Shown here one piece after another: positions 37,418 through 63,186 of a stretch of DNA of 64,000 bases. Source of the DNA: Comamonadaceae bacterium ALPHA2B (GTDB taxonomy: Bacteria; Pseudomonadota; Gammaproteobacteria; Burkholderiales; Burkholderiaceae_C); NCBI GenBank assembly GCA_005503065.1, contig SCOE01000001.1, forward strand, positions 186,001 to 250,000. The letters are read 5' to 3'. The position numbers were made by a program, and so were the translations under genes. The notes under the pieces are model-generated. The model made no database searches. It saw only the letters and a list, made by a program, of their open reading frames with translations, and had not been told where the DNA came from. Each line of letters starts with the position of its first letter. The first letter of the stretch is position 1.

Positions 37418-37621
37418 ATGACACCCCAGGAAGCCGAGAAGTACGTCGACGCGACGGCCGCGGCGCTGGGCCTGCCGCTGCGCAGCGACCACCGCCCGGG
37501 CGTGCTGCGCTACTTCGGACTGGCGGCCGGCTTCGCCGCCCTGGTCGAGGCGGTGCCGCTCGAGCCGCACCATGAGAGCGCGGTGAGCTTCGTGCCCGTG
37601 CCGCCGGAGCCTGCCGAATGA
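37418..37621 (+). CDS. atzG: AtzG-like small subunit (HpxX-like)
   Basis: A 67-residue acidic protein of the DUF4089 type: EAEKYVDATAAALGLPLRSDHRPGV with the PE/RPGV helix turn. AtzG forms a complex with AtzE that is needed for 1-carboxybiuret hydrolysis; in hpx clusters the same family is called HpxX. Its stop overlaps the amidase start by 4 nt (ATGA), a strong sign that the two form a complex. Confidence 0.88.
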   Translation: MTPQEAEKYVDATAAALGLPLRSDHRPGVLRYFGLAAGFAALVEAVPLEPHHESAVSFVPVPPEPAE

Positions 37622-39053: not shown

Positions 39054-39440
39054 ATGATCGACGTTGCCGACATCAACCTGCCCGACGTGGTGGCCGAGGT
39101 GCGCGCCGCCTTCTCGCTGTACGAGGACGCGCTGGTGCACAACAAGGTCGAGATGCTCGACGCCCTGTTCTGGAACAGCCCGCACACCCTGCGCTACGGC
39201 GCCACCGAGAACCTCTACGGCTACGAGGCCATCGCCGCCTTCCGCGCCTCGCGGCCTTCGCAGGGCCTGATGCGCGACCTGCTGCGCGTGGAGATCACCA
39301 CCTACGGCCGCGACTGCGCGACCGCCAACTGCGAGTTCCGCCGCGAAGGCAGCACCCGAACGGGGCGCCAGAGCCAGACCTGGATGCGCACCGCACAAGG
39401 CTGGCGCGTGGTGTCGGCGCATGTGAGCCTGCTGGAGTGA
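39054..39440 (+). CDS. hpxZ: HpxZ-family protein (oxalurate catabolism, SnoaL-like)
   Basis: A 128-residue NTF2-like small protein, [42 protein letters not shown], which is the signature of the HpxZ/DUF3225 group. It follows atzE by 2 nt with an AAGGAA Shine-Dalgarno inside the preceding gene. In Klebsiella the family belongs to the hpxWXYZ oxalurate genes. Its molecular function is not known; it may be a chaperone or accessory subunit to the AtzEG-type amidase. Confidence 0.88.
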
Positions 39441-42779: not shown

Positions 42780-43844
42780 ATGAGCGGACTGGGCGGTCTC
42801 AACAAATCGGCGAACGGCGTGGTGGTGGGACTGGTGCAGCTGCAGTTGCCGGTCGTTGCCACGCGCGAGCAGCTGGCGGCACAGACGCAGCGCATCTGCG
42901 AGCTGGTGGGCAAGGCCCGCCGTAACCAGCAGACGATGGACCTGGTGGTCTTTCCGGAGTATTCGCTGCACGGACTCTCGATGGACACCAACCCCGAGAT
43001 CATGTGCAGCCTCGACGGCCCGGAGGTGGCGGCCTTCCGCGCGGCCTGCAGGGAGCACCGCATCTGGGGCTGCTTCTCCATCATGGAAGCCAACGAGGGC
43101 GGCAACCCCTACAACAGCGGCCTGGTCATCGACGACCAGGGCGCGATCCGCCTGTACTACCGCAAGCTGCACCCCTGGGTGCCGGTGGAGCCCTGGGAGC
43201 CCGGCAACCTGGGCGTGCCGGTGTGCGACGGACCCAACGGCAGCAAGCTGGCGCTCATCATCTGCCACGACGGCATGTTCCCGGAAATGGCGCGCGAGGC
43301 GGCGTACAAGGGCGCGGACATCATCCTGCGTACCGCCGGCTACACGGCGCCGATCCGCCACGCCTGGAAGATCACCAACCAGGCCAACGCCTTCTGCAAC
43401 CTGGCCTACACCGCCAGCGTGTGCATGTGCGGCAGCGACGGCACCTTCGACTCGATGGGCGAGGGCATGTTCTGCAGCTTCGACGGCACCGTGATGGTGG
43501 AGGGCGGCGGCCGGCCCGACGAGATCATCACCGCCGAGCTGCGGCCCGACCTGGTGCGCGAGGCGCGCACCGGCTGGGGCGTGGAGAACAACATCTACCA
43601 GCTCTATCACCGCGGCTACGTGGCGGTGAAGGGCGGCGCCCAGGACTGCCCCTACACCTACATGCACGACATGGCGGCCGGCCGCTACCGGCTGCCGTGG
43701 AGCGACAAGGTGCAGGTGACCGACGGCACCTCCTGCGGCTTCCCGTCACCGGTGCGGCTGTACGGCGGCGCCGGCTCGCATCCGCTGGTGCCGCCGCCCG
43801 CACCCGACGTGCCCGAGAAGGAACGCCTCAAGACACTGGATTGA
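42780..43844 (+). CDS. amiF: Formamidase (AmiF-like nitrilase-family amidase)
   Basis: A 354-residue nitrilase-superfamily enzyme that hydrolyses formamide to formate and ammonia. The triad is Glu60 (VVFPEYS), Lys129 (YYRKLHPW) and Cys162 (ICHDGMFPE), with the further MNGLGGL-like N-terminus of AmiF. Start at 42780 has an AGGAA Shine-Dalgarno; an upstream ATG at 42753 overlaps the permease and would add 9 residues. Located between the importer permeases and BiuH, it fits a general amide and ureide nitrogen operon. Confidence 0.9.
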   Translation: MSGLGGLNKSANGVVVGLVQLQLPVVATREQLAAQTQRICELVGKARRNQQTMDLVVFPEYSLHGLSMDTNPEIMCSLDGPEVAAFRAACREHRIWGCFSIMEANEGGNPYNSGLVIDDQGAIRLYYRKLHPWVPVEPWEPGNLGVPVCDGPNGSKLALIICHDGMFPEMAREAAYKGADIILRTAGYTAPIRHAWKITNQANAFCNLAYTASVCMCGSDGTFDSMGEGMFCSFDGTVMVEGGGRPDEIITAELRPDLVREARTGWGVENNIYQLYHRGYVAVKGGAQDCPYTYMHDMAAGRYRLPWSDKVQVTDGTSCGFPSPVRLYGGAGSHPLVPPPAPDVPEKERLKTLD

Positions 43845-43850
43845 CCCAAG

Positions 43851-44573
43851 ATGGACGCCACGACGACACCGACCACCGACGCGCCGCGCTTCGCCGCCGC
43901 CGAGCCCTACCGCTGGCCCTACGACGGCGACCTGCGTCCCGACAACACGGCGCTCGTCGTCATCGACATGCAGACCGACTTCTGCGGCAAGGGCGGGTAC
44001 GTCGACGTGATGGGCTACGACATCTCGCTCACGCAGGCGCCGATCGAGCCGATCCGCCGCCTGCTGGCCGTGATGCGGCCGCTGGGCTACACCATCATCC
44101 ACACCCGCGAGGGCCACCGGCCCGACCTGTCGGACCTGCCGGCCAACAAGCGCTGGCGCTCGCGCCAGATCGGGCAGGACGGCGTGGGCATCGGCGACGA
44201 CGGCCCGTGCGGGCGCATCCTCATCCGCGGCGAACCGGGCTGGGAGATCATCCCCGAGCTGGCACCCATCGACGGCGAGGTGGTGATCGACAAGCCGGGC
44301 AAGGGCTCCTTCTACGCCACCGACCTGGAGATGATCCTGCGCACCCGCGGCATCCGCAACATCGTGCTCACGGGCATCACCACCGACGTGTGCGTGCACA
44401 CGACGATGCGCGACGCCAACGACCGCGGCTTCGAGTGCCTGCTGCTGTCGGACTGCACGGCCGCCACCGACCCGGGCAACCATGCGGCGGCGCTGAAGAT
44501 GATCACGATGCAGGGTGGCGTGTTCGGAGCGCATGCCACGTCCACCGCGCTGATCGCGGCCTTGCAGCCATGA
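43851..44573 (+). CDS. biuH: Biuret amidohydrolase (BiuH), cysteine-hydrolase family
   Basis: A 240-residue isochorismatase-fold enzyme that splits biuret to allophanate and ammonia. It has the catalytic set Asp39 (VVIDMQTDF), Lys148 ([10 protein letters not shown]) and Cys181 ([10 protein letters not shown]). By memory the N-terminal part ([48 protein letters not shown]) is nearly identical to the characterised Rhizobium BiuH. Its product feeds AtzF. It follows formamidase and overlaps the ABC ATPase start by 4 nt. Confidence 0.93.
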
Positions 44574-46204: not shown

Positions 46205-46870
46205 ATGAAGATCGACGCCCAACCCTTCGCCTACGCGTTCGAGCTGCCGCACACGGCGCTGGTGCTCATCGACATGCAGCGCGACTTCATCGAGCCCGGC
46301 GGCTTCGGCGAGACGCTGGGCAACGACGTGTCGCTGCTCGAGGCCATCGTGCCGGCCACGAAGGCGGTGCTGGCGGCGTGGCGCGCCGCCGGCGGCCTCG
46401 TCGTGCATACCCGCGAGGCGCACCGGCCCGACCTGTCGGACTGCCCGCCGGCCAAGCGCGACCGCGGCAACCCCCGCCTGCGCATCGGCGACCTCGGCCC
46501 CATGGGCCGCATCCTCGTGGCCGGCGAACCGGGAAACCAGATCATCGACGCCCTGGCGCCGGCTCCCGGCGAGCTCGTCATCGACAAGCCGGGCAAGGGC
46601 ATGTTCTACGCCACCGGCCTGCACGAGACGCTGCGCTCGCGCGGCATCACGCACCTGCTGTTCGGCGGCGTGACGACCGAGGTCTGCGTGCAGACCTCCA
46701 TGCGCGAGGCCAACGACCGCGGGTACGAGGGCCTGCTGCTGGAGGACTGCACCGAGAGCTACTTCCCGCAGTTCAAGGCGGCCGCCATCGAGATGATCCG
46801 TGCGCAGGGCGCGATCGTCGGCTGGACGGCCCCCAGCACCGCGCTGCACGCGGCGTTGGCCGCGGGCTGA
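46205..46870 (+). CDS. Cysteine hydrolase of the isochorismatase/BiuH superfamily
   Basis: A 221-residue enzyme with Asp23 (VLIDMQRDF), Lys128 ([10 protein letters not shown]) and Cys161 ([11 protein letters not shown]). It is a shorter relative of BiuH, sharing [13 protein letters not shown]-like and [20 protein letters not shown] segments, but lacking the N-terminal 20 residues. It starts right after the ATPase stop, so it is cotranscribed. It probably acts on a substrate related to biuret (for example a ureide or N-carbamoyl amide). Confidence 0.88.
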
Positions 46871-48910: not shown

Positions 48911-49939
48911 ATGAAAGAACGAATGACCCTGGAGCGCCTGACCGGCATCGTGGCGTTCGCGCGTGCCGCGTCGTCCGGCAGCTTCACCGCGGCGGCGAGG
49001 TCGCTGTCGGTGTCGCCCTCAGCGGTCAGCCGGACGATCGGGCGCCTGGAGCGGCAACTGGGCGTGCGGCTCTTCAGCCGGACCACGCGCTCGCTCACGC
49101 TCACGGCCGAAGGGCAGGCGCTGCACGACCGCGCGCTGCAGCTGCTGCAGGCGGCCGAGGAGGTGGTTCAGTCGGCCGCCGCCGCGCGCTTGGAACCCGC
49201 CGGGGTGCTGAAGGTGGCAGCGTCGATGCCCATCGGCGTGCGGCTTCTGGCGCCGGCGCTGCCCGAGTTCCACCGGCGCCATCCGAAAGTGCGCGTCGAC
49301 CTGCGCCTGGGCGACCGCTTCGTCAATCTGGTCGAGGAAGGGATCGACGTGGCGGTCCGCATCGGCCACCTGGCCGATTCGGGCCTGGTGTCGCGCGGCC
49401 TGGCGCGTACGCGGATCGGCGCCTTCGCCTCGCCCGCCTACCTGGCCAGGCGGGGCGTTCCGGCCCACCCCGAGGACCTGAGAGATCACGACTGCGTGAG
49501 CTTCCGCTACCAGGCGTCGGGGCAGGTGATGGCGTGGTCGTTTCGGGTGGGCCGTCGCATCGTGGAGTTCAGGCCCGACGCATCCATGGTGGTGGATGCC
49601 AGCGACGCCATCGCCGAAGTGCTCGCCGCCGGGGGGGGCATCGGCTTGCTGGGGTCCTTCATCGCCGAGCCCTACGTCGAGCGGGGCCTGCTGCGGCCGG
49701 TGTTGGGACGATTCGCGATCGATGGCGCACCGATCACCGCGGTGTGGCCCGAGAGCCGGCGGGCGAGCCCGAATGCAAGGGCCTTCATCGCCTACCTGAG
49801 CGAGGTCTTCGCGCCGCTCGCCTCGGATGGCGTCGGGGAGCCGGCAGGTGCGGCACCGGCCGGCATGAGCGCAGGGGCTCAGCCTGCCCCTGCACCGAGC
49901 GCCGCCAGCCGTTCCCGCAGGAATTCGGCGAAGGCGTAG
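48911..49939 (+). CDS. LysR-family transcriptional regulator
   Basis: A 342-residue LTTR with HTH in residues about 10-60 (LTGIVAFARAASSGSFTAAARSLSVSPSAVSRTIGRLERQLG) and an effector domain of the AaeR/DmlR-like type (KVAASMPIGVRLLAPALPEFHRRHPKVRVDLRLGD). The C-terminal 38 residues are proline- and alanine-rich and extend into the antisense 3' end of the next LysR gene. ATG 48911 or 48923 are equally possible starts. It is divergent from the MDR gene and probably controls it. Confidence 0.85.
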   Translation: MKERMTLERLTGIVAFARAASSGSFTAAARSLSVSPSAVSRTIGRLERQLGVRLFSRTTRSLTLTAEGQALHDRALQLLQAAEEVVQSAAAARLEPAGVLKVAASMPIGVRLLAPALPEFHRRHPKVRVDLRLGDRFVNLVEEGIDVAVRIGHLADSGLVSRGLARTRIGAFASPAYLARRGVPAHPEDLRDHDCVSFRYQASGQVMAWSFRVGRRIVEFRPDASMVVDASDAIAEVLAAGGGIGLLGSFIAEPYVERGLLRPVLGRFAIDGAPITAVWPESRRASPNARAFIAYLSEVFAPLASDGVGEPAGAAPAGMSAGAQPAPAPSAASRSRRNSAKA

Positions 49940-50784
49940 GCGATCACCGGCAACTGACGTCCGCGCAGGCAGCCCAGCACCAGCTCGCCCTGCGGAAAGG
50001 CCCGGTCCTCGATGGCGCGGGCCACCAGCTCGGGGTCGCCCAGCTCGGTGCCTACTGCCATCTGGAAGGTGATGGACCGGCGGTCGGCCAGGCAGCCGCG
50101 CAGGAACTCGAAGCTGTTGCTCTCCACCATGGGCTGGAAGCGGGTGGAGCTGCGCGCCAGGAAGCGCTCCAGCAGCTGGCGCCCGCCGATGTCGCGGTTG
50201 GGCAGCACCACCGGATAGTCGGCGCAGTCGCGCAGCCGCAGGGCGCTGCGGCCGGCCAGCGGATGCTCGGCATGCATCATGGCCATCAGCCGCTGGCCGG
50301 CCACGTCCAGCCGCTGGATGTCGGACTCGGCGGGCAGGTTGAAGACCAGGGCCAGGTCGGTGTCCAGACTGCGCAGGGCCTCGGCGGCGTGCACGTGGTC
50401 GCCGATGCGCGCGTCGAAGGCCACCAGCGGATGCGACTCGCGGAAGGCTGCGATGGCCGCCGGCAGGAAGCGCGGCGCCAGGGCCTGGCTGGCCACCAGC
50501 CGCACCCGGCCGCGGCGCAGGCCCTGCAGCTCCTCGATCTCGGAGCGCACCCGCTCCAACTCGGCGCCGCGGTCGCGCACGTAGCGCACGAACAGCTCGC
50601 CCGCGGCCGTGAGCCGCATGCCGCGCGGCAGGCGCTCGAAGAGGGGCGTGCCCAGCTCCTCCTCGATGTCCTGGATGCGGCGGTTGACGGCCGAGGGCGC
50701 CACGTGCAGCCGTTCGGCCGCCTGGCGGATCGACCCCACGCGGGCCACTTCGTCGACGTAGCGCAGCAGGCGCAGGTGGTTCAT
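49879..50784 (-). CDS. LysR-family transcriptional regulator
   Basis: A 301-residue LTTR with HTH LRYVDEVARVGSIRQAAERLHVAPSAVNRRIQDIEEELG (about 6-45), then effector segments RRGRVRLVASQALAPRFLPAAIAAFRESHPLVAF and MHAEHPLAGRSALRLRDCADYPVVLPNRDIG. It converges with the LysR at 48911-49939, the coding regions overlapping by 61 nt. The ATG overlaps the stop of the XRE gene by 4 nt, so both regulators are made from one transcript. Confidence 0.9.
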   Translation of the reverse strand: MNHLRLLRYVDEVARVGSIRQAAERLHVAPSAVNRRIQDIEEELGTPLFERLPRGMRLTAAGELFVRYVRDRGAELERVRSEIEELQGLRRGRVRLVASQALAPRFLPAAIAAFRESHPLVAFDARIGDHVHAAEALRSLDTDLALVFNLPAESDIQRLDVAGQRLMAMMHAEHPLAGRSALRLRDCADYPVVLPNRDIGGRQLLERFLARSSTRFQPMVESNSFEFLRGCLADRRSITFQMAVGTELGDPELVARAIEDRAFPQGELVLGCLRGRQLPVIAYAFAEFLRERLAALGAGAG

Positions 50785-51680
50785 GCGCCCATTGTGGTGT
50801 CTGCGTGCTCGCGCAGCAGGCGCGCCAGTTCGGCGCTGGCGGCGGTGCCCTTCAGGGCCGATTCCCACAGCCGCGCAGCCAGCGTTTCGTGCAGGCGCAG
50901 GGCTTCCTCGTCCTCGCTGATCATCGCCACGCCGTAGTGCAGGTTGGTCGGCTCCACGATGCGGAAGGGGCTCGTCACCAGCACGCGGCGCCCCGGCGGC
51001 AACTGGATCAGCTGGAAGCCGCTGGTCGGCAGCGGCTGGGTGGTCAGCACGATCTGCACGCCCATCGGCGGCGAGGCGATGAGGCCGGCCAGGCGTTCCA
51101 TCTCGCGCCGCGCCGCGAGCCGCCGGGCGGCGCGTTCGGCCGCCGGCAGCAGGGGGTGGCCGCCGAGGCCGTGGGTCAGGTAGCGCTCGATGTCGCTCAC
51201 CGGCACGATGTTGACGAGCGCTGGCCTGTTGCGCGCAAAGGCGGCCTTGCGCTTGGCCAGGAGGTGCATCAGGCGTTCGGCCTCGGCCGCGCTCAGGGGG
51301 GTCTGGTCGGCGCGCCGGTCGACCAGGCGCTCGGCCAGCGCGGTGTCGTAGGCGTCGGAGCTCAGCATGTAGGCCTGCGGCCCGAACACCACGGTCATCT
51401 GCGTGGCCTCTGCTTCCAGCCGCTGCTGGCGGTCGAAGAACAGCATGCCGTGGGTGATGTACTCGTTGCCCAGGCCGAGCAGGGCGCCGGTCGAGGTCTC
51501 GTACAGCCGGGCCAGCTTTTCCAGCACCTCGAGCTTGACCACTTCGCCCGACTCGTAGCGATAGAGAAGCGCGCGCGAGATGCCAGCCGCGCGCGCCACC
51601 TGCTCGGTGCTCAGGCGCGCGTTCTGGCGCCGGCTGCGCAGGCGCTCCCCGATGTGGGCGTAGAGGCGGGCGGTGGTCAT
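50781..51680 (-). CDS. XRE-type helix-turn-helix protein with C-terminal sensor-like domain
   Basis: A 299-residue protein. The N-terminal 60 residues are a Cro/C1-type HTH (LRSRRQNARLSTEQVARAAGISRALLYRYESGEVVKLEVLEKLA). The remaining 230 residues have no domain I recognise but contain MLFFDRQQRLEAEATQMTVVFGPQ and a strand-rich GVQIVLTTQPLPTSGFQLIQLPPGRRVLV. In regulators of this build the C-terminus senses a ligand. Translationally coupled to the LysR downstream and divergent from the alpha/beta hydrolase operon, across a promoter containing the 8-bp palindrome TTCGCGAA (51709-51716). Confidence 0.8.
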   Translation of the reverse strand: MTTARLYAHIGERLRSRRQNARLSTEQVARAAGISRALLYRYESGEVVKLEVLEKLARLYETSTGALLGLGNEYITHGMLFFDRQQRLEAEATQMTVVFGPQAYMLSSDAYDTALAERLVDRRADQTPLSAAEAERLMHLLAKRKAAFARNRPALVNIVPVSDIERYLTHGLGGHPLLPAAERAARRLAARREMERLAGLIASPPMGVQIVLTTQPLPTSGFQLIQLPPGRRVLVTSPFRIVEPTNLHYGVAMISEDEEALRLHETLAARLWESALKGTAASAELARLLREHADTTMGA

Positions 51681-51786
51681 GGCTGCTGCCGTCTCGTTAA
51701 TGAGTCAGTTCGCGAAATTGCACGTTGTGACGCCGGTCCGGCCGGCCTACGCTGGCCTGGCCATCCCGCCATCTCACGCAACGAAC

Positions 51787-52554: not shown

Positions 52555-52565
52555 GGACTTCCACC

Positions 52566-53445: not shown

Positions 53446-54288
53446 ATGCACAGCGATGAACGCACTCCCGGCACCAAGTTGGGCGCAGGCCCGGGCAGCC
53501 CCGCCGGCTTCGGCCCTGCGGCCGCCAACCGCTGGCAAATGCAGGACGGCACCCTGAACCTGGTCCGCACGCCGCCGGCGCCGCGGCCCCTTGCCCTGCC
53601 GGCACAGCCCGAAGCGCTCGTGATCGACCTTGCCCGCACCGCGCTGGTGGTGGTCGACATGCAGAACGACTTCTGCCACCCCGAGGGCTGGTTCGGCCAG
53701 AAGGGCCTGGACGTGCAGGCCGCGCGCCGGCCCATCCCGGTGCTGCAGGCGCTGCTGCCGGCCTGGCGCCGCGCGGGCAGCCCGCTCATCTGGCTGAACT
53801 GGGGCATCCGCGCGGACCTGCGCAACCTGGGCCCCACGGTGCAGTTCAAGGGCAAGCGCACGGCCGAGGGCGTGGGCTATGGCGAGCGCTCGCCCATCGA
53901 CCATGGCCCGTCACTGGTGCAGGGCAGCTGGGGTGCGGCACTGGTCGACGAGCTTGCGGCCGAACCGGGCGACCTCCTGGTGCACAAGCACCGGCTCTCG
54001 GGCTTCTGGGACAGCGAACTCGACAGCATCCTGCGCAACGCCGGCATCACCACCCTGCTGTTCGCCGGCATCAACACCGACCGCTGCGTGTTCTCCACGC
54101 TGCAGGACGCGGCCTTCCTGGGCTACGACTGCGTGCTGCTGGAGGACGCGTGCAGTACCTCGTCGCCCGACTACGTGACCGGAGGCGTGCTCTACCTCGT
54201 GCGCCTGCTGCACGGCTTCACCGCGACTGCGGCCGACCTGGGTGCGGCCCTGGCCGACCTTCCCGACCTTCCTTCCAACCCTGCCTGA
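53446..54288 (+). CDS. Isochorismatase-type cysteine hydrolase (ureidoacrylate/amide hydrolase-like)
   Basis: A 280-residue enzyme with Asp71 (VVVDMQNDF), Lys181 (LVHKHRLSGFW) and Cys214 (NTDRCVFSTLQ), the catalytic triad of amide-hydrolysing members such as RutB and BiuH. The extra N-terminal 60 residues contain a conserved-looking ANRWQMQDGTLNLVR segment. The ATG at 53446 is one of two starts; GTG 53407 would add 13 residues. First gene of the ring-opening operon, 12 nt before an ABC receptor gene. It probably hydrolyses an N-carbamoyl or amide intermediate released by the cyclic amidohydrolases. Confidence 0.87.
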   Translation: MHSDERTPGTKLGAGPGSPAGFGPAAANRWQMQDGTLNLVRTPPAPRPLALPAQPEALVIDLARTALVVVDMQNDFCHPEGWFGQKGLDVQAARRPIPVLQALLPAWRRAGSPLIWLNWGIRADLRNLGPTVQFKGKRTAEGVGYGERSPIDHGPSLVQGSWGAALVDELAAEPGDLLVHKHRLSGFWDSELDSILRNAGITTLLFAGINTDRCVFSTLQDAAFLGYDCVLLEDACSTSSPDYVTGGVLYLVRLLHGFTATAADLGAALADLPDLPSNPA

Positions 54289-54300
54289 GGAACCTTCGCC

Positions 54301-55350
54301 ATGACCTCGACCCTCTCCCTTCTCGCGCGCTGGACGCGCCCGCTCATCGGCGCCGCCGCCCTGGCCCTGGCGGCCCTGCCCACCGCCGCGCAGACGCCCG
54401 TCAAGCTGGTGCTCAACTGGAAGTACGAAGGCCCGCAGGCCTGGTTCTTCCTGGCGCAGGACCGCGGCTATTTCAAGCAGGAAGGCCTGGACGTCAGCAT
54501 CGACCAGGGCGAGGGCTCGGCCGCGTCCATCCCGAAGGTCGCCGCCGGCACCTACCAGGCCGGCTTCGGCGACATGAATGCGCTGATCGACCTGGCCTCC
54601 AAGCGGCCGGCCGATGCGCCGGTGGGCGTGTACATGCTCTACAACACGCCGCCCTTCGCGGTGGTGGTACGCAGCGACAGCCCGATCAAAAGCCCCAAGG
54701 ACCTCGAGGGCAAGACCATCGGCGGCCCGGCCAACGACGGCGCGCTCAAGCTCTTCCCGGCCTTCGCCAAGCTGGCCAAGGTCGATGCCGCCAAGGTCAC
54801 CATCTCCAACATGGCGCCCAACCTGCGCGAGCAGATGCTGGTGCGCGGCCAGATCGACGCGGCCTTCGGCTACGTGACCACCGTGAGCTTCAGCGCCCGC
54901 GGCATGGGCCTGGACCCGGCCAGGGACCTGCGCTTCATCCGCTACGGCGACCACGGCATGGACCTCTATGCCAACACCGTGTTCTTCTCGCGCAGCTTCG
55001 TGCAGGACAAGCCACAGGCCGTGGCCGGCTTCGTCAAGGCGCTCAACCGCGCCATCAAGGAGGTGCTCGCCAATCCCGAGGCCGGCATCGACGCAGTGAT
55101 GAAGCGCGAGCCGCTGCTCAAGCGCGAGGTCGAGAAGGACAAGCTGCTGGCCACGCTGAAGAACGACATGAGCCACCCCGAGATCGCCCGCATCGGCCTG
55201 GGCGACGTGGACGACGAGCGCCTGAAGAAGGCCATCGGCATCGTGGCCGAGGCCAACCAGCTGCCGCGCCAGCCCGAGGTGGGCGAGGTTTTCGACCGCC
55301 GCTTCCTGCCGGCGCGCGCCGAACGCCCGTCCAGCACCGTCGCGCCCTGA
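54301..55350 (+). CDS. ABC substrate-binding protein, ThiY/NMT1 type
   Basis: A 349-residue exported receptor (signal about 11-30, WTRPLIGAAALALAALPTAAQ). The mature start [62 protein letters not shown] matches the THI5/ThiY branch that binds the pyrimidine N-formyl-aminopyrimidine rather than the SsuA branch. It shares this layout with the second receptor of the operon (60644-61705). Ligand probably an aminopyrimidine- or triazine-like ring. Confidence 0.9.
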   Translation: MTSTLSLLARWTRPLIGAAALALAALPTAAQTPVKLVLNWKYEGPQAWFFLAQDRGYFKQEGLDVSIDQGEGSAASIPKVAAGTYQAGFGDMNALIDLASKRPADAPVGVYMLYNTPPFAVVVRSDSPIKSPKDLEGKTIGGPANDGALKLFPAFAKLAKVDAAKVTISNMAPNLREQMLVRGQIDAAFGYVTTVSFSARGMGLDPARDLRFIRYGDHGMDLYANTVFFSRSFVQDKPQAVAGFVKALNRAIKEVLANPEAGIDAVMKREPLLKREVEKDKLLATLKNDMSHPEIARIGLGDVDDERLKKAIGIVAEANQLPRQPEVGEVFDRRFLPARAERPSSTVAP

Positions 55351-55390
55351 ACACCACCGACAAGACCCCCTGAAGAAAGAAGAGACCGCC

Positions 55391-56182
55391 ATGGATCTGC
55401 AACTGCGCGACAAGGTCGCCATCATCACCGGCCCGGCCAAGGGCATGGGCGCCGCCATCACCCTGGCCTTCGCCCGAGAAGGCGCCAGGCTGGTGCTGGC
55501 CGGCCGCGACACCGCCGCCATCGAACCCGTGGCCGCCGAGGCCCGCGCGCTGGGCGTGCCGGCGCAGGTGGTGGCCTGCGACCTCATCGTCTCCAGTCAG
55601 ACCGAGGCCCTGGCCACGGCCGCGCTGGCGGCCTTCGGCCGCATCGACATCCTGGTCAACGTGGCCGGCGGCTCCGGCCCCATCGGCAAGACCGGCTGGG
55701 AGACCACCACCGAGGAATTCGACGAGATCGTGCGGCTGAACATGACCGGCTGCTTCAACACCATCCGCGCCGTCATGCCCGCGATGGTCGAGCAGCGCAG
55801 CGGCAAGATCGTCAACGTGGGCGGCACCTTCGGCCTGCGCGGGCGCGCCGGGCGCATGGCCTATTCGGCCTCCAAGTGGGGCCTGCGCGGCATCACCAAG
55901 AGCTTTGCGCTGGAGGCCGGGCCGCACAACATCAACGTCAACAACGTCGCGCCAGGCATGGTGGACGGCCCGCGCTTCCGCGAGAAGGTGTGCGCCAACA
56001 TGGCCCAGCGCCTGGGCATCACGCTGGAGGAGGCCATGCAGCGCCACGCCGCCGACTATGCGCTGCGCCGCGTCTCCACCGACACCGACATCGCCAACGC
56101 CTGCCTGTTCATGGCCAGCGAGGTCTCGCGGCAGATCACCGGCGCCGACCTGCCGGTGGACGGCGGCTGGGCCGCTCTCTGA
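55391..56182 (+). CDS. SDR-family oxidoreductase lacking the usual catalytic serine
   Basis: A 263-residue short-chain dehydrogenase. The coenzyme motif is TGPAKGMG (14-21), with NAG-like VNVAGG (about 90-95), Tyr158 and Lys162 in MAYSASKWG, and the final GADLPVDGGWAAL. The position of the catalytic Ser (13 residues before the Tyr) is Gly145 in VNVGGTFG, with Thr146 next to it, so activity may be altered or Thr may substitute. It lies between a receptor and a dihydroorotase-like gene, where it could reduce or oxidise a ring substrate such as a dihydropyrimidine. Confidence 0.85.
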   Translation: MDLQLRDKVAIITGPAKGMGAAITLAFAREGARLVLAGRDTAAIEPVAAEARALGVPAQVVACDLIVSSQTEALATAALAAFGRIDILVNVAGGSGPIGKTGWETTTEEFDEIVRLNMTGCFNTIRAVMPAMVEQRSGKIVNVGGTFGLRGRAGRMAYSASKWGLRGITKSFALEAGPHNINVNNVAPGMVDGPRFREKVCANMAQRLGITLEEAMQRHAADYALRRVSTDTDIANACLFMASEVSRQITGADLPVDGGWAAL

Positions 56183-56199
56183 GAACGGGAGCGAACACC

Positions 56200-57672
56200 A
56201 TGCGACCCGAAGTCGACCTCGTCATCCGCGGCGCGAGCGTGGTCTCGTCCGACGCCATCGTGCCCGCCAGCGTGGCCATCGCCGGCGAGCAGATCGTGGC
56301 CGTGGGCCACGACGACACCATGCCGCCGGCGCGCGAAGAACTGCGGGCCGACGGCCTGTTCCTGCTGCCCGGCGCCATCGACAGCCATGTGCACTTCCGC
56401 GACCCGGGCTATCCGCACAAGGAGACCTGGCGCACCGGCTCGGCCGCCGCCGCGCTGGGCGGCGTGACCACCGTCTTCGACATGCCCAACACCTCGCCGG
56501 CCACGGGCACGGTGGAGGCGCTGCGCCTCAAGCAGAAGGCGGCCGAGGCGTCCTACTGCGACTTCGGCATCCACGGCCTGCTGGGCGACGACACCATCGA
56601 GCGGCTGGAGGAGCTGCTGGAGGCCGGCGTCACCAGCTTCAAGGCCTTCGTCGGCAACACCTTCGGCAACCTGCCCGCGCCCACCGACGGTGCGTTGCTG
56701 GAGGGCTTCGAGACGCTGGCGCCGCTGGGCGTGCGCACGGTGGTGCATGCGGAGAACTCGTCGATCCTGTTCCGCCGCCAGAAGAAGATGCAGGAGGCCG
56801 GCCGCATCGACGCGATGGCCCATCTGGCGGCCCGTCCGGCCGTGGCCGAGATCGAGGCCATCGGCCGCGTGCTGACGCTGGCCGAATGGACCGGCGCGCG
56901 GGTGCACATCGCCCACCACAGCGCGGCCGATTCGCTCTTCCTGCTGCGCGAGGCCAAGCGCCGCGGCGTGGACGTGACGGCCGAGACCTGCCCGCAGTAC
57001 CTGCTGCTCAACACCGAGCACATGCGCAAGCTGGGCGGCGTGATGCGGCTGAACCCGCCCATCCGCGAGCCGCGTCACAACCAGCCCCTGTGGGACGCGC
57101 TGATGGACGGCACGCTGGACATGATCGCCACCGACCATGCGCCGCATGCGCCCGAGGAGAAGACGCGCGAGAGCATCTGGGACTGCGACTGTGGCTTCCC
57201 GGGGGTGGAGACGCAGATGCCGCTGATGCTCACCGAGGTCAACCGCGGCCGCGCCACGCTCATGGACTACGTGCGCTGGAGCGCCGTGGCGCCCGCCAAG
57301 GCCTGGGGCCTGTACGGCACCAAGGGCGTGATCGCGCCCGGCGCCCATGCCGACATCGCCATCGTCGACATGGCGCGCCGGGGCCTGCTGTCGCAGAACC
57401 GGCTGCAGAGCATCAGCCGCATCTCGCCGTGGAACGGCCGCCCGGTGCAGGGCTATCCGCTGCACACGCTGCTGCGCGGGCGCTTCGTCATGCGCGACGG
57501 CCGTCTGGTGGAGGACGCCGTGGGCTGGGGCCGCTCGGTCAAGGCCGTGCAGAAGATGCCCACGCCGCGGCCGCGCAACACCGAGCACTACAGCCGCGCC
57601 ATCCTGGAGACGCCGCCCGGCGTGCCGCCGACGGCGGTGCCGGTGGGCGAGGTGGACTGGAGCGCGACGTGA
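56200..57672 (+). CDS. Dihydroorotase/allantoinase/dihydropyrimidinase-family hydrolase
   Basis: A 490-residue amidohydrolase with a binuclear metal site: His63 and His65 (DSHVHFRDPG), carboxylated Lys148 (TSFKAFVG), His183 (VVHAENSS), His239 (HIAHHSAAD) and Asp312 (IATDHAPH). The family opens cyclic amides (dihydroorotate, allantoin, hydantoin, dihydropyrimidines). Sequence features are nearest the allantoinase/dihydroorotase group. The GTGA overlap with the downstream ring-opening gene indicates tight coupling. It may act on the same ring or on a product of it. Confidence 0.88.
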   Translation: MRPEVDLVIRGASVVSSDAIVPASVAIAGEQIVAVGHDDTMPPAREELRADGLFLLPGAIDSHVHFRDPGYPHKETWRTGSAAAALGGVTTVFDMPNTSPATGTVEALRLKQKAAEASYCDFGIHGLLGDDTIERLEELLEAGVTSFKAFVGNTFGNLPAPTDGALLEGFETLAPLGVRTVVHAENSSILFRRQKKMQEAGRIDAMAHLAARPAVAEIEAIGRVLTLAEWTGARVHIAHHSAADSLFLLREAKRRGVDVTAETCPQYLLLNTEHMRKLGGVMRLNPPIREPRHNQPLWDALMDGTLDMIATDHAPHAPEEKTRESIWDCDCGFPGVETQMPLMLTEVNRGRATLMDYVRWSAVAPAKAWGLYGTKGVIAPGAHADIAIVDMARRGLLSQNRLQSISRISPWNGRPVQGYPLHTLLRGRFVMRDGRLVEDAVGWGRSVKAVQKMPTPRPRNTEHYSRAILETPPGVPPTAVPVGEVDWSAT

Positions 57673-58796
57673 GCGGCATCGTCCCCCAGCATGTGGACGC
57701 GCACGTGGTGCCCTGCCGCGGCCCCGGCGACCTGAGCGGCGTGCAGGCCCTGGTCGAGGCCGGTGCGCTCGATCCGCGCCACATCGTGGCTGTGATGGGC
57801 AAGACCGAGGGCAATGGCTGCGTCAACGACCACACCCGCGACTTCGCCGCCATGGCCTGGTGCCACTACCTCGCGCCGCACCGCGGCTGCACGCCGCAGG
57901 CGGTGCATGCGCAGGTGGCGCTGGTGATGTCCGGCGGCACCGAGGGCGTGCTGTCGCCGCACTTCACCGTGTTCACCCGCCGTCCCGCACTGCCGCACGA
58001 GGTGGTGGAGGGCGATAAGCGTCTGGTGGTCGGCATCGCCCACACGCGCGACTTCGCGCCGGAGGAGATGGGCCGCCAGGCGCAGATCGCGGCCACGGCC
58101 GAGGCGGTGCAGGCCGCCATGCGCGATGCCGGCATCGGCGATGTGGCCGACGTGCACTTCGTGCAGGTCAAGTGCCCGCTGCTGACCGCCGCCAAGGTGG
58201 ACGACGCGCTCGGCCGCGGCCAAGACACCGTGACGCGCGACACCTACGAATCGATGGGCTACTCGCGCGCCGCCTCGGCGCTGGGCGTGGGCGTGGCGCT
58301 GGGCGAGGTCGATGCGGCGCGCGCCACCGATGCGGCCGTGCTGCACGACACCACGCTGCACTCGGCCCGCGCCTCCGTGTCGGCCGGCATCGAGCTGGAG
58401 GGAAACGTGGTCATCGTGCTGGGCGAGGCCGCGGGCAGCGCATCGCCGCTGCGCATCGGCCATGCGCTGATGCGCGACGCGGTGGACACGGCGGGCCTGC
58501 GCGCGCTGCTGCGCGAGCACTTCGGGCTGGACCCGGAGGTCGACGCGGCCCTCATCGCGCAGCGGCTGGTCAACCTGCTGGCCAAGGCCGAGGCCAGTCC
58601 CGATGGCCGGGTGCGCGAGGCGCGCCACACCATGCTGAACGACTCGGACATCCATTCCACCCGCCATGCGCGGGCCGCCGTCGGGGCCGTGCTGGCTTCG
58701 GTGGTCGGGCGCACGGCGCTGTACGTCTCGGGCGGTGCCGAGCATCAGGGCCCGCCCGGCGGCGGCCCGGTGGCTGCGCTGGTGCGCGTGGCCTGA
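57669..58796 (+). CDS. Ring-opening amidohydrolase of the cyanuric acid hydrolase/barbiturase family
   Basis: A 375-residue protein of the AtzD/TrzD/barbiturase family, a fold with three repeats each giving a Ser-Lys pair. Visible pairs are Lys45 (MGKTEGNG) with Ser88 (VMSGGTEG), Lys168 (VQVKCPLL) with the Ser236/238 area (SARASVSAG), and Lys306 (LLAKAEAS) with Ser354 (YVSGGAEHQGPPGGG). The family opens cyanuric acid to 1-carboxybiuret or barbiturate to ureidomalonate. The C-terminal SGGAEHQGPPGGG holds the metal site. The GTG start overlaps the preceding stop. Which of the two activities it has cannot be read with certainty here; the BiuH/AtzEG/AtzF set in the same window favours cyanuric acid. 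Confidence 0.92.
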   Translation: MSGIVPQHVDAHVVPCRGPGDLSGVQALVEAGALDPRHIVAVMGKTEGNGCVNDHTRDFAAMAWCHYLAPHRGCTPQAVHAQVALVMSGGTEGVLSPHFTVFTRRPALPHEVVEGDKRLVVGIAHTRDFAPEEMGRQAQIAATAEAVQAAMRDAGIGDVADVHFVQVKCPLLTAAKVDDALGRGQDTVTRDTYESMGYSRAASALGVGVALGEVDAARATDAAVLHDTTLHSARASVSAGIELEGNVVIVLGEAAGSASPLRIGHALMRDAVDTAGLRALLREHFGLDPEVDAALIAQRLVNLLAKAEASPDGRVREARHTMLNDSDIHSTRHARAAVGAVLASVVGRTALYVSGGAEHQGPPGGGPVAALVRVA

Positions 58797-58822
58797 GCTT
58801 CCATTCCTTGCTGGAACATCCC

Positions 58823-59695
58823 ATGAGCCAGAGCTTCATCCAACTCTCCAACGTGATGCTGCGCTACGGCGGCGGCACCATCGCCCTGGACCACACCACG
58901 CTGGGCATCGACCGGGGCGACTTCGTGGCCCTGGTCGGCCCCAGCGGCTGCGGCAAGTCGACCATCCTCAAGCTGCTGGCCGGACTGCTGCGGCCCACCT
59001 CGGGTGCGGTGATCGCCGGCGGCCGCGAGGTCGGGCCGGCGGGTGCACGCCCCATTGCGGCCGGCCGGCCGGCGCTGCGCATCGGCCTGGCCTTCCAGAA
59101 CCCGACCATGCTGCCGTGGCTCACGATCCGCGAAAACGTGATGATCCCGCTGAAGATCGTCGAGCCCTTCCGGCAGGACTACGCGCGCAAGAAGCGCGGC
59201 GAATACGCCGAGCGCGCCGACGCGCTGCTGGCCCAGGTGGGCCTGCGCGGCTTCGGCGACAAGCGGCCCTGGCAGCTGTCGGGCGGCATGCTGCAGCGCG
59301 CCTCGCTGTGCCGCGCGCTGGTGCACGAGCCCGAGCTGCTGCTGCTGGACGAGCCCTTCGGCGCCCTCGACCAGTTCACCCGCGAGGAGCTGTGGGACAT
59401 CATGCAGACGCTGTGGATGACCCAGCGGCCCACCGTGCTGCTGGTGACGCACGACCTGCGCGAGTCGGCCTACCTGGCCAACCGCATCTGCGTGATGAGT
59501 GCGCGGCCCGGCCGCATCCTGGAAACGCGCGACGTGGACTTCGCCCGGCCGCGCACGCTGCAGTCCAGCTACGACCCGGCCTTCGGCGCGCTGGTGCAGC
59601 AGCTGCGCATGCGCATCGCCGAGGCGCGCTGCGAGAGCGACACGGCCGCTGCCGCAGCTGCCATGCCCACTGCGCTGCAGGGGGTGGCGGCATGA
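58823..59695 (+). CDS. ABC transporter ATP-binding protein, NitT/TauT family
   Basis: A 290-residue ATPase with Walker A GPSGCGKST (39-47), Q-loop LAFQNPTMLPW, signature LSGGMLQR, Walker B LLLLDEPFG and H-loop LLVTHDLRESAYLA. A C-terminal extension is alanine-rich. Start ATG 58823 lies 26 nt after the ring-opening gene. Serves the importer with the permease that overlaps it by 4 nt. Confidence 0.93.
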   Translation: MSQSFIQLSNVMLRYGGGTIALDHTTLGIDRGDFVALVGPSGCGKSTILKLLAGLLRPTSGAVIAGGREVGPAGARPIAAGRPALRIGLAFQNPTMLPWLTIRENVMIPLKIVEPFRQDYARKKRGEYAERADALLAQVGLRGFGDKRPWQLSGGMLQRASLCRALVHEPELLLLDEPFGALDQFTREELWDIMQTLWMTQRPTVLLVTHDLRESAYLANRICVMSARPGRILETRDVDFARPRTLQSSYDPAFGALVQQLRMRIAEARCESDTAAAAAAMPTALQGVAA

Positions 59696-60543
59696 ACGCG
59701 CGCGTGGACACCGCGGACGCGGTCGAACCCGCAGCCGAAGCCGCCAGCCCCGCCGTGCCGCGCCTGTCCCCGCTGGCGCGCCAGCGTCTGCTGTCCGGCC
59801 TGGCGCTGGTCGGCTTCTTCCTGGCCTGGGAGCTGGTCTGCCTGGCCAGCGGCATCTCGGACCTGGTGCTGCCCCGGCCCAGCCAGATCGCCCGCGTGCT
59901 CATCGAGCGCATGCCGCTCCTGTGGCCGCACACGGTGCAGACGCTCTACACCACGCTGCTCGGCTTCGCGCTGGGCGTGGCCGCGGGCATCGTCATCGGC
60001 GTGGGCATCGGCTCTTCGCGGCTGGCCTATGACGTCACCTATCCGCTGCTGGTGGGCTTCTCCAGCATTCCGAAGGTGGCGGTGGTGCCGCTGTTCGTCG
60101 TGTGGTTCGGCGCCGGTACCGTGCCGGCGGTGCTCACCTCGATGGTCATCAGCATCTTCCCGGTGGTGGTCAACGTGGCCACCGGGCTGGCCAGCACCGA
60201 GCCCGAACTGGAGGATGTGCTGCGCGTGCTGGGCGCGCGCAAGCGCGACATCCTCTGGAACGTGGGCCTGCCGCGTGCCATGCCCTACCTGTTCGCGTCG
60301 CTCAAGATCGCCATCACGCTGTCCTTCGTGGGCACCGTGCTGTCCGAGACCGTGGCCTCCAACCGCGGCATCGGCACCGTGATGATGATCGCCAGCGGCA
60401 ACTTCGACGTGCCGATGGTGTTCGCCGGGCTCTTCCTGCTGGCGGCCATGGGTGTGCTGCTCTATGCGCTGTCGGCGCTGGTGGAGCGCCGCGTGACCGG
60501 CTGGTCGCAGCGCAAGACCGACCTGGCGGCGACGGGGGCCTGA
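59692..60543 (+). CDS. ABC transporter permease, NitT/TauT family
   Basis: A 283-residue permease with a 30-residue polar N-terminus and six helices. The EAA loop reads [39 protein letters not shown]. It is the only permease of the operon, so the two ThiY-like receptors share it. Cotranscribed with the ATPase (ATGA overlap). Confidence 0.93.
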
Positions 60544-60566
60544 GATGCGGGTCAGTGAACCCAGGA

Positions 60567-60591
60567 CCGTTCGGGCTGAGCCTGTCGAAGC
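60567..60591 (+). repeat. Interspersed repeat family S, single arm
   Basis: CCGTTCGGGCTGAGCCTGTC followed by GAAGC lies in the gap before the second receptor. The complementary arm is absent, so this is a half element. It lies within the operon and does not appear to disrupt the Shine-Dalgarno AAGGAG at 60633-60638. Confidence 0.75.
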
Positions 60592-60643
60592 CGGGGCGCC
60601 CACTCGCCAAAGCCCTTCTTCTTTTGCCTTCCAAGGAGCTTCC

Positions 60644-61705
60644 ATGTCCCGCCCCTTCTCCCGCCGCAGCGCCGGCCTGGCGCTGTCGGCGCTGTCGCTG
60701 CTGGTGGCTCTCGGCGCTGCCCTGGCGCCGGCACCGGCCGCCGCCCAGGCCGACACCCCGATCAAGTTCGTGCTCGACTGGAAGCTGCAGGGCGTGCATG
60801 CCTGGTACTACCTCGCGCAGGACCGCGGCTACTTCGCCCGCGAGAAGCTGGCCGTGACCATCGACCAGGGCGACGGCTCGGCCGCCACCGTCACGAAGAT
60901 CATGGCCGGTGCCTACCAGGCCGGCTTCGGCGACGTGAACGCCATCGTGCAGAACGCCACCGCCAAGCCCGGCCAGGCGCCGGTGATGGTCTACATGCTC
61001 TACAACCGCGCGCCCTTCGCGCTGATCGCCAAGGCCGACGGGCCGATCCGCACGCCGCAGGACCTGCAGGGCCGCACCGTCGGCACGCCGGCCGGGGGCG
61101 CGGCGGCCCGCATGTTCCCCGTCATCGCGGCGCGCACCGGCATCGATGCCGCCAAGGTCGCCTGGACCAATGTGGCGCCCAACCTGCAGGAGCAGCTGCT
61201 GCTCAAGGGCCATGTGGATGCCGCGGCCGTGTTCTCGGTCACCAGCTACATGAATCTCGTGGCGCAGGGCGTCGACCCCGACAAGGACATCCGCTGGTTC
61301 CATTACGGCGACTACGGCGTCGAGCTCTACGGCAACGGCGTGATGGTGTCGCAGCAGCTGCTGCGCGAGCGGCCCGAGGCCGTGGCCGGCCTGGTGCGCG
61401 CGATCAACCATGCGGTGCGCGACACCATCGCCGACCCCGAAGCGGCCATCGCGGCTCTGTACAAGCGCGAGCCGCTGCTCAACAAGGAGCTGGAGAAACG
61501 CCGGCTGCTCTACACCCTCAAGACCGTCATGCTCACGCCCGAGGTGGCCACGCAGGGCCTGGGCGATGTGAGCGATGCCCGTTTTGCCCGCGCCTTCCTG
61601 CAGCTCAAGGAGGCCTTCGACCTGCCGCGCGTGCCCACGGCGTCCGAGGTGTTCGAGCGCCGCTTCCTGCCGCCGCTGGCCGAGCGCACGGTCGCCAAGC
61701 GATGA
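60644..61705 (+). CDS. ABC substrate-binding protein, ThiY/NMT1 type (second receptor of the operon)
   Basis: A 353-residue exported receptor (signal [29 protein letters not shown]). Mature start [63 protein letters not shown] parallels the first receptor (54301-55350) almost step by step, indicating a duplication with divergence. AAGGAG lies 5 nt before the ATG. The 4-nt overlap with the next gene ties it to the amidohydrolase. Confidence 0.9.
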
Positions 61706-63165
61706 GCGACACGGCCGCGCCCGCCGCCATCGACTGCGCCTGGCTGCTGGCCGAGCCCGGGGCTGCGCCCGCACAGCGCGACCGGCGCATCCATATCGAA
61801 GGCGGCCATGTGGCCGCCATCGAGGCGCTACCCGCCCCGGTGCCCGGCCGCCGGCGGCTGGCGCTGCCGGCGCTTGCCAACGCGCACGACCATGCGCGCA
61901 CCGTGCGCAGCGCCACGCTGGGTGCCTTCGGGCAGCCGCTCGAAAGCTGGCTGCCCTTCCTGGGCGTGGTGCCGGGCATGGACCCGTACCTGTGCGCCGC
62001 GACCTCCTTCGCCCGCTCGCTGCGCAATGGTGTGGTGGACCTCATGGTGCACTACACCCGCGTGCAGGGCGGCCTGCCCTATGTCGACGAAGCAGCCGCC
62101 GTGGGCCGTGCCGCGCGCGACGTGGGCGTGCGCATCGGCTTCGCGGTGGCCCTGCGCGACCGCCACGGCCTGGGCTATGCCGACGACGCGACGGTGTTGG
62201 CGGCGCTGCGCCCCGCGATCCGCGACGACATCGCCAGGCGGCTGGCGGCACCCTCGGTGGCGCCAGCGCTGCAGCTCGCGCTGGTCGAGGAAGTTGCCCA
62301 GCGGATCGCTGCCGACGGCCTGGGTGCCCACGTGGACGTGCAATACGGCCCAACCGGCGTGCAGTGGTGCAGCACGCCGCTGCTCGAAGCCATCGCCCAG
62401 GCCTCGGCAGAGACCGGCCGGCGCGTGCACATGCACCTGCTGGAGACGCAGTACCAGCGCGCCTGGGCCGATGCCGCGCACCCGGGCGGCATCGTGCGCT
62501 TCCTGGACGACATCGGCCTGCTCGGCCCGCGGCTCACCCTGGCGCATTGCACCTGGGCGCGGCCGGAGGAGCTGGCCCTGATCGCCGAGCGCGGCGCGAC
62601 CATCGCGGTCAACACCAGCTCCAACCTGGGCCTGAAATCGGGCATTGCCCCGCTCGCGCAGATGCTGGCCCAGCGCTGCCGGGTGGCCATGGGGCTGGAC
62701 GGCATGGCCTTCGACGAGGACGACGACGCCCTGCGCGAGGCCCGCCTGGCCTATGCGCTGCACCGCGGCTGGGGGTACGACACCACCATGACGCCGGCGC
62801 AGCTCTGGCGCTTCGCGTCGCGCGGGCGGATCGCATCGGGCGAGCCGGCGGACCTCCTGCTGCTCGACTGGGATGCGCTGGACGACGACGCCCTGTTCTA
62901 CGATATCAATCCGCTGGACCTGCTGCTCGCCCGCGGCAGCGGCCGGCACGTGCACACCGTCATCGCTCGCGGCCGCACGGTGGTCGACGCCGGCCGCGTC
63001 CTGGGCGTGGACGAGGTGGCCCTGCAGGTCGAACTGCGGGAGCGCATGCGGTCGGCGCTGGCAGCGGATGGCCCCCATGCCGGCTGGCGCCGCAGCGTGC
63101 AGGCCCTGGCCGAGGACGTGGCGCCTTTCTACCGGAGCGGCCGCTTCCTGGGAGGCTGCTGCTGA
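61702..63165 (+). CDS. Amidohydrolase of the TRZ/ATZ/cytosine deaminase type
   Basis: A 487-residue subtype III amidohydrolase with metal site His62/His64 (NAHDHARTV), His245 and Glu248 (HMHLLETQ), His282 ([10 protein letters not shown]) and Asp333 ([10 protein letters not shown]). This group contains the triazine hydrolases AtzA, AtzB, TrzN, guanine and cytosine deaminases, and SsnA. It would remove an amino or other substituent from a nitrogen ring, producing a ring substrate for the AtzD-like enzyme. Last gene of the operon (overlap with the receptor). The C-terminal ring-binding region differs from known AtzB, so the substrate is open. Confidence 0.87.
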
Positions 63166-63186
63166 ATCTTCCGCTTCGCGGGCGCC

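Follow-up and report, generated by a model that had tools for sequence, protein, structure and literature searches.

Why should a gene for a predicted cyanuric acid hydrolase stand in one operon with a second ring-opening enzyme, and do the two act on the same ring? The question arises from a 64,000-nucleotide (nt) stretch (186001-250000) of contig SCOE01000001.1 from the soil-type Comamonadaceae bacterium ALPHA2B (hereafter the window), in which nine plus-strand genes at 53446-63165 encode an AtzD-family enzyme, a dihydroorotase-like enzyme (Dho), a short-chain dehydrogenase (SDR), two further hydrolases and an ATP-binding cassette (ABC) importer with two receptors. Cyanuric acid hydrolases are known mainly from the breakdown of man-made triazines. 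AtzD travelling with a second ring-opening module may point to a natural role of such enzymes, and the conservation of the importer operon, seen across many Burkholderiales and also on a plasmid of Skermanella, makes the question of a natural substrate testable. With confidence slightly better than even, we read the locus as a LysR-controlled operon that scavenges nitrogen from heterocycles through two arms served by one shared ABC importer.

Gene content of the operon

The first gene, iso (53446..54288, start uncertain), encodes an isochorismatase-type, RutB-like cysteine hydrolase, a putative amide or ureido hydrolase by profile and Protein Data Bank (PDB) matches. It is followed by sbp1 (54301..55350), for an NMT1/THI5-like (ThiY-like) periplasmic receptor (Pfam, PDB matches); sdr (55391..56182; Pfam, alignment); dho (56200..57672), whose product was assigned as a dihydroorotase-like cyclic amidohydrolase from profiles, PDB matches, alignment and a structure model; and atzD (57669..58796, GTG start), for a predicted cyanuric acid hydrolase of the AtzD/barbiturase family (profiles, signature residues). 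Genes for a NitT/TauT-like ABC ATPase (58823..59695) and an ABC permease (59692..60543), both assigned from Pfam and NCBIfam, precede sbp2 (60644..61705), for a second NMT1/ThiY-like receptor (Pfam, PDB matches, locus comparison), and trz (61702..63165), for a TRZ/ATZ-type metal-dependent aminohydrolase (profiles, fold search, alignment). A LysR-type regulator that would control the operon is encoded on the minus strand at 49879..50790 (start uncertain; locus comparison).

In Pfam and NCBIfam profile scans the nine products matched, in gene order, Isochorismatase, NMT1, adh_short, Amidohydro_1, Amido_AtzD_TrzD, ABC_tran, BPD_transp_1, NMT1 and Amidohydro_1, which upheld the family assignments of the original prediction. 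The nine-gene operon that it described is likewise real, its open reading frames (ORFs) being closely packed (distances from gene 1 to gene 9 of 12, 40, 17, -4, 26, -4, 100 and -4 nt) and coding-like in third-codon G+C (0.90-0.96). The word "fused" that had been applied to them was wrong, as the ORFs are separate, with 4-nt overlaps at three gene pairs and a 100-nt gap ahead of sbp2.

The AtzD step and its context

The window AtzD scored 521.2 bits against the NCBIfam equivalog model for cyanuric acid amidohydrolase (NF052395, cut-off 360) and is 58% identical to AtzD of pADP-1 over 94% of its length. It is the one AtzD family match in the host genome (6.0 Mb in 91 contigs), and such matches were found in 0 of 14 control genomes. 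At the specificity positions 195, 321, 325, 345 and 346, as named in the available text of PMC3758960, the alignment gave R195, T321, R325, G345 and G346, together with the three Ser/Lys pairs of AtzD; eight of the twelve mapped positions share one numbering offset, and the other four were placed by alignment motif. R, T, R and G thus stand where a barbiturase would carry N195, H321, K325 and V345, and identity as a barbiturase was rejected on this signature. Among 104 related rows, R-T-R-G-G was found in 52/53 linked to dho, 8/8 linked to AtzE/F/H, 4/5 with partial context and 22/38 others. Because of the signature and the NF052395 score, an s-triazine is supported over a pyrimidine at this step, and the enzyme is predicted to be a cyanuric acid hydrolase with cyanurate as its substrate. 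Of the amino-substituted pyrimidine or s-triazine first proposed, the s-triazine is thus retained at AtzD and the pyrimidine is less favoured.

A wholly pyrimidine-based pathway had seemed plausible from the receptors and from iso. Both receptors, originally described as ThiY-like, matched among other PDB entries THI5/THI13 chains and the formylaminopyrimidine-binding chain 3ix1, which ranks first for sbp2 and second, after 4nmy, for sbp1. Iso resembles RutB (132.8 bits to PDB 8bkd) and has motifs with the Asp, Lys and Cys of its family, located by alignment, which we take to form the catalytic triad. It fell below the cut-offs of both the RutB model (TIGR03614; 147.6 bits, cut-off 377.95) and the biuret hydrolase model (NF050097; 120.5 bits, cut-off 370), and no other Rut model was among the matches listed for the nine operon proteins. 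A Rut-type uracil route was rejected on these NCBIfam cut-offs. A role for iso as the biuret hydrolase was also rejected, on its score and on the presence of a BiuH over cut-off elsewhere in the window. A linear amino-pyrimidine pathway, in which AtzD would act as a barbiturase after deamination and the opened chain would pass to Dho and iso, has the pyrimidine-binding resemblance of the receptors and the RutB resemblance of iso in its favour; we consider it very unlikely, since the AtzD signature is of the cyanurate type and the window context is one of biuret and allophanate. The oxidative pyrimidine pathway likewise shares the AtzD/barbiturase fold family with the window and differs in the residues N, H, K and V, which the window AtzD lacks.

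That context is a cyanurate/biuret cluster, absent from the original prediction, about 6-20 kb upstream of the operon (32.9-47.6 kb). On the plus strand it encodes an allophanate hydrolase, AtzF (32944..34686; 765.9 bits, cut-off 511.05); an AtzE-family amidohydrolase (37618..39051; 669.2 bits, cut-off 425.75); an AtzH/HpxZ-like protein (39072..39434), 74% identical to a protein of related locus L071 that passes those models; a formamidase (42780..43844; 572.6 bits, cut-off 406); the biuret amidohydrolase BiuH (43851..44573; 421.4 bits, cut-off 370); and a second BiuH-like isochorismatase (46205..46870), which at 254 bits stays under that cut-off and shares about 52% identity with the window BiuH. 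Judged from gene position alone, this second protein may be TrtA-like. Two transporter gene sets and a GntR-type gene complete the cluster. Allophanate hydrolase was over cut-off in 26/26 and BiuH in 22/26 chosen genomes, not all of which have the dho operon, compared with 1/14 and 0/14 control genomes. Relatives from Rhodoferax and Xylophilus encode an AtzD (69-76% identity) within such a cluster or at its end. The allophanate hydrolase/AtzE/AtzH-like layout agrees with the available text of PMC6219798, where the atzG-atzE-atzH clusters of Rhodoferax and Variovorax have allophanate hydrolase genes upstream.

The cyanurate arm is therefore known chemistry in a new arrangement. Like atzDGEHF of Pseudomonas sp. 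ADP, the window has AtzD, AtzE, AtzH-like and AtzF homologues; unlike it, the window atzD (57.7 kb) is not contiguous with the atzF, atzE and atzH homologues (32.9-39.4 kb) but lies 18-25 kb from them, in another operon that instead has an SDR, dho, iso, trz and an ABC importer. Two further routes appear in the available text of PMC5806882 and PMC7948467, the latter describing TrtA-BiuH-AtzF operons. With these, the AtzD-BiuH biuret route of Rhizobium leguminosarum 3841 and the TrtA-BiuH-AtzF triuret route, the window shares a BiuH over cut-off, a second BiuH-like protein and AtzF; it differs from both in that atzD is not adjacent to biuH and in its extra dho/SDR module. No description of the operon was found in open-licence literature, nor was such a layout for cyanurate or Rut pathways, which agrees with the earlier statement that it is not a known one.

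Other contexts of AtzD-family genes were also seen. A flavin adenine dinucleotide (FAD)-binding monooxygenase gene directly adjoins an AtzD-family gene of about 43-46% identity in two loci (L131:8304-9557, L132:9957-11180); the L132 monooxygenase matched the HpxO model at 60.6 bits and salicylate hydroxylase at 49.5, both weak and below cut-off. ORFs of similar size precede atzD in L150 and L151, and an RQRGG signature in four AtzD rows presumably belongs to the L131/L132-type set. Six loci of genus g20 (L017, L018, L020-L022, L028) hold recurring pairs of a distant AtzD-like protein (about 34-36%) and a distant TRZ-type protein (31-32%); seven rows, presumably of this set, carry a KDRAN signature unlike that of AtzD or barbiturase.

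The aminohydrolase position

The product of the last gene has the Amidohydro_1 domain with the HxH, H, E, H and D of TRZ/ATZ aminohydrolases, and its metal-site residues (H62, H64, H243, E248, H282, D333) were kept in 42/42 rows. It was below every NCBIfam cut-off among the models listed, and its nearest folds, at ~20% identity, form a general aminohydrolase set of methylthioadenosine (MTA)/adenosine deaminases, AtzA, isocytosine deaminase and TrzN. More can be drawn from what replaces it. Among 36 long dho loci (20 kb or more; contig ends may cut loci), 24 have trz, seven an AtzC-like gene, none both and five neither (Fisher p ~9e-5, kinship ignored). In those seven the AtzC-like enzyme adjoins the second receptor, where trz otherwise stands, and on the AtzD tree the replacements fall at two distinct points. 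The one representative of the seven compared with the PDB matched AtzC best (172.8 bits, with cytosine deaminase at 124.7). An AtzC-like enzyme in the trz position therefore supports an s-triazine arm. Separately, in three Bacillota loci and a Pelolinea metagenome-assembled genome (L102, L103, L106, L111), a gene product about 30-31% identical to the AtzC-like enzyme is encoded near atzD.

Gene order across genomes

AtzD-related loci were compared using the best 80 of 120, the dho-bearing ones including many close relatives. Dho was present in 50 of the 80, directly ahead of atzD in 45 of those 50, and a LysR gene was present in all 36 long dho loci. The order is more than chance, and the check for the same gene order in other genomes was thus answered positively. 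The nearest named relatives by AtzD are Pseudacidovorax (92-97%, six loci) and Xenophilus aerolatus (92%). In wider samples, with the host genome included in each count, Dho had matches in 7/300 genomes of its order (E <= 1e-100) and 4/398 of its phylum (E <= 1e-130), and P0005 in 23/300 of the order sample (E <= 0.001).

In several relatives SDR and dho occur together with atzD not adjacent (L120, L147-L149, L154, L155, L158). An M20 hydrolase gene occupies the atzD slot in L120; the order is SDR-dho-atzD-M20 in L121, Amidohydro_2-dho-M20 in L122, sbp2-trz-sbp1-SDR-dho-ATPase-permease in L147 (neither atzD nor iso adjoining), LysR-SDR-dho-trz-M20 in L148 and dho-DUF3830-SDR-SDR in L149, a 6.2-kb contig. 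L083 has a cut M20 match at the contig start, ahead of atzD. M20 as a plain substitute for atzD was rejected, because L121 has both genes side by side even though M20 fills the atzD slot in L120. The Skermanella plasmid operon has atzD plus an acetamidase/formamidase gene; in two of five Azospirillum plasmids with a match the formamidase is present and atzD absent from the plasmid (only plasmids were searched). On a Novosphingobium plasmid, genes for an HbpS/GlcG-like protein and malate synthase G come after SDR-dho (L155:11162-16046). Genomes G588 and G002 have an AtzD family match elsewhere. These varied layouts show that SDR and dho, usually plus trz and the two-receptor importer, form a core across classes, around which AtzD and the amidase vary, the latter being iso, M20 or FmdA.

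One explanation is that the operon is an ordinary cyanurate operon in which the other genes are unrelated passengers. In a quick tree built from 105 AtzD rows without bootstrap, dho-linked and AtzE/F/H-linked rows intermix. The dho-linked label changes 12 times, against a mean of 35.1 when shuffled, and starred branches force at least six of these changes. Sequences from Skermanella, Halopseudomonas and G097 join outside the main Burkholderiales block, several of them as long branches of unsure placing. AtzD does shift between contexts, as passengers would allow, but SDR and dho stay linked in Beta-, Gamma- and Alphaproteobacteria, in most cases along with ABC genes and whether or not atzD adjoins, and we hold this explanation to be highly doubtful.

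L120 and L148 also share a superfamily trio (a TRZ-type amidohydrolase, a dihydropyrimidinase-like enzyme and an M20 hydrolase) with the reductive uric acid cluster SsnA-HyuA-YgeY, as given in the available text of PMC12507026. The window differs from that cluster in that trz reaches only 67-71 bits to SsnA models and in having an SDR, not YgfK, as the reductase in the operon. LOG and DUF3830 genes, present in 13/36 and 32/36 long dho loci, were dropped as operon parts, having no match in the window.

Ring chemistry of Dho and the SDR

What, then, would the second module act on? The Dho metal-site residues H63, H65, K148, H183, H239 and D312 are conserved (H65 in 61/62 rows, the others in 62/62), as are R67 (HVHFR), N97 (MPNT) and H316 (DHAPH) in 62/62 rows, near-copies included. 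Residues of the R67/N97/H316 type presumably bind the substrate carboxylate in dihydroorotase; at the same sites the aligned allantoinase 3hm7 shows HVHFN, MPLNSNP and DHSPS. The classical alcohol-type SDR tetrad is N-S-Y-K. The window SDR does not fit it, having Gly145 at the catalytic Ser position in 60/60 rows with Tyr158 and Lys162 kept in 60/60 (near-copies included). FabG-type enzymes have the Ser and 6jh7 also departs there in the alignment; in reductases acting on C=N and C=C bonds it is often missing. Because the R/N/H set is invariant and the SDR lacks the Ser, the pair suggests that a ring is first reduced and that the dihydro form, bearing a carboxylate, is then hydrolysed.

A housekeeping dihydroorotase role for Dho is unlikely, as the host genome has another match over the pyrC_multi cut-off (Dho itself scored 318.8 bits, cut-off 279.05); so is a role as main allantoinase, as the host has a match over cut-off to TIGR03212, which we take to be the PuuE-type allantoinase. 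If Dho were nevertheless an allantoinase, the module would be a second allantoin or hydantoin route. Relatives annotated allB on plasmids, the allantoinases among the nearest folds, the score against the AllB model TIGR03178 (352.6 bits) and the M20 and malate synthase neighbours would all fit. However, that score is narrowly below the cut-off of 357.85, Dho differs from 3hm7 at the R/N/H positions, TIGR03212 was over cut-off in 14/15 genomes tested, host included, and the relatives' M20 proteins are DapE/ArgE-like, which leaves this route quite improbable. Routes for creatinine, thiamin-pyrimidine, pterin and 5-azacytosine were weighed on chemical grounds alone and not adopted.

An alternative that we regard as unlikely joins all the enzymes into a single route that would degrade oxonate (5-azaorotate) or the corresponding amino compound, derived from urate or guanine oxidation. 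Trz would deaminate the amino form, the SDR would reduce a ring C=N bond and Dho would open dihydrooxonate in the way that dihydroorotate is opened by dihydroorotase; decarboxylation would give ureidoglycine and then glyoxylate, urea and ammonia, and oxidative decarboxylation of the same compound would yield cyanuric acid for AtzD. The invariant carboxylate-binding set of Dho and the Ser-less SDR fit, as do the flavin monooxygenase genes beside atzD in L131 and L132, the L132 HpxO match being weak and below cut-off. The GlcG-like and malate synthase G genes near SDR-dho on the Novosphingobium plasmid point to glyoxylate, but that malate synthase context was met once. In the available text of the sources, urate oxidation yields triuret and cyanuric acid (PMC7948467), oxidative DNA damage yields cyanuric acid (PMC3758960), and a Polaromonas plasmid carries a cyanurate hydrolase, a COG0044 amidohydrolase and a ureidoglycolate lyase, adjacency unstated (PMC6015842); this plasmid was not found among the matches listed (40 of 132 and 60 of 968 records). 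Against the proposal, no link between oxonate and these genes was found among the open-licence papers listed, and a natural supply of oxonate would have to be assumed. In its broader form, to which we give little credence, the SDR-dho-trz module would break down a carboxylated s-triazine (oxonate, or an amino derivative arising from urate or guanine oxidation) by a pathway not described before, and cyanuric acid hydrolases would have been recruited to it on several occasions, since the pathway yields cyanuric acid as a branch product. If true, this would give the family a natural role predating synthetic triazines.

Proposed mechanism

The two-arm reading, which we prefer, would work as follows. 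In arm A, sbp2 would deliver an ammelide-type s-triazine with an amino substituent, trz would remove the exocyclic group hydrolytically to give cyanuric acid, and AtzD would open this to 1-carboxybiuret, which the upstream-encoded AtzE/AtzH/AtzF or BiuH/AtzF would convert to ammonia and CO2. In arm B, sbp1 would deliver a second ring, the SDR would reduce a ring C=N or C=C bond, Dho would hydrolyse the resulting carboxylate-bearing dihydro ring, and iso (M20 or FmdA in relatives) would hydrolyse the open-chain amide. Apart from cyanurate at AtzD, we infer the substrates, as we do the direction of the SDR reaction, the split into two arms and the LysR control.

The pathway originally drawn ran in one line from uptake through deamination by the last gene product and opening by AtzD-like and/or dihydroorotase-like enzymes to amide hydrolysis. 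Three of these steps are kept here: uptake, the hydrolysis by which the last gene product takes a substituent off the ring, and ring opening by AtzD. The single line through three hydrolases is not, because SDR-dho occur without an adjacent atzD in the seven loci named above and the conserved Dho residues suggest a different, carboxylated ring. As the s-triazine arm through cyanuric acid is upheld, half of the earlier pathway thus stands.

Several observations weigh against the two-arm reading. Trz stays with dho where no atzD adjoins (L120, L147, L148, L154, L158), and may therefore feed Dho, not AtzD. G637 and G542 have the SDR-dho pair with no AtzD match in the genome, so arm B need not go with cyanurate. 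Two loci scored as lacking trz, L066 and L069, have a TRZ-type match of 29-30%, below the threshold used, and the CodA/AtzC-like protein of L106, the only one of its kind compared, is nearer cytosine deaminase (219 bits) than AtzC (170). BiuH was below cut-off in 4/26 chosen genomes. The whole Dho sequence and fold are nearest allantoinases and hydantoinases (structure model of mean pLDDT 76, weak in several loops). An N-terminal Dho fragment matched human CAD dihydroorotase at 65 bits, 3hm7 at 56 and bacterial dihydroorotases at 35-58; as the 3hm7 score lies within the bacterial dihydroorotase range, these scores fail to separate the two and do not decide.

Neighbouring genes

Between the LysR gene and iso lies a block (50781-53348) with genes for an XRE-type regulator, an alpha/beta hydrolase and an amino-acid-type receptor, named from the sequence. 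The same block is present in L032, L034, L036, L038 and L039. It was not found in L033, L035 and L037, where the LysR gene is directly divergent from iso, as in most relatives. Downstream, a DUF3830 gene follows trz in 6/6 Pseudacidovorax loci (L032-L037); the window has no DUF3830 match, and a minus-strand gene (HDOD-like by eye) follows trz there (63165-63187). An ARAGORN call of tRNA-Gly(ccc) at 50751-50850, over the junction of the LysR and XRE genes, is probably spurious.

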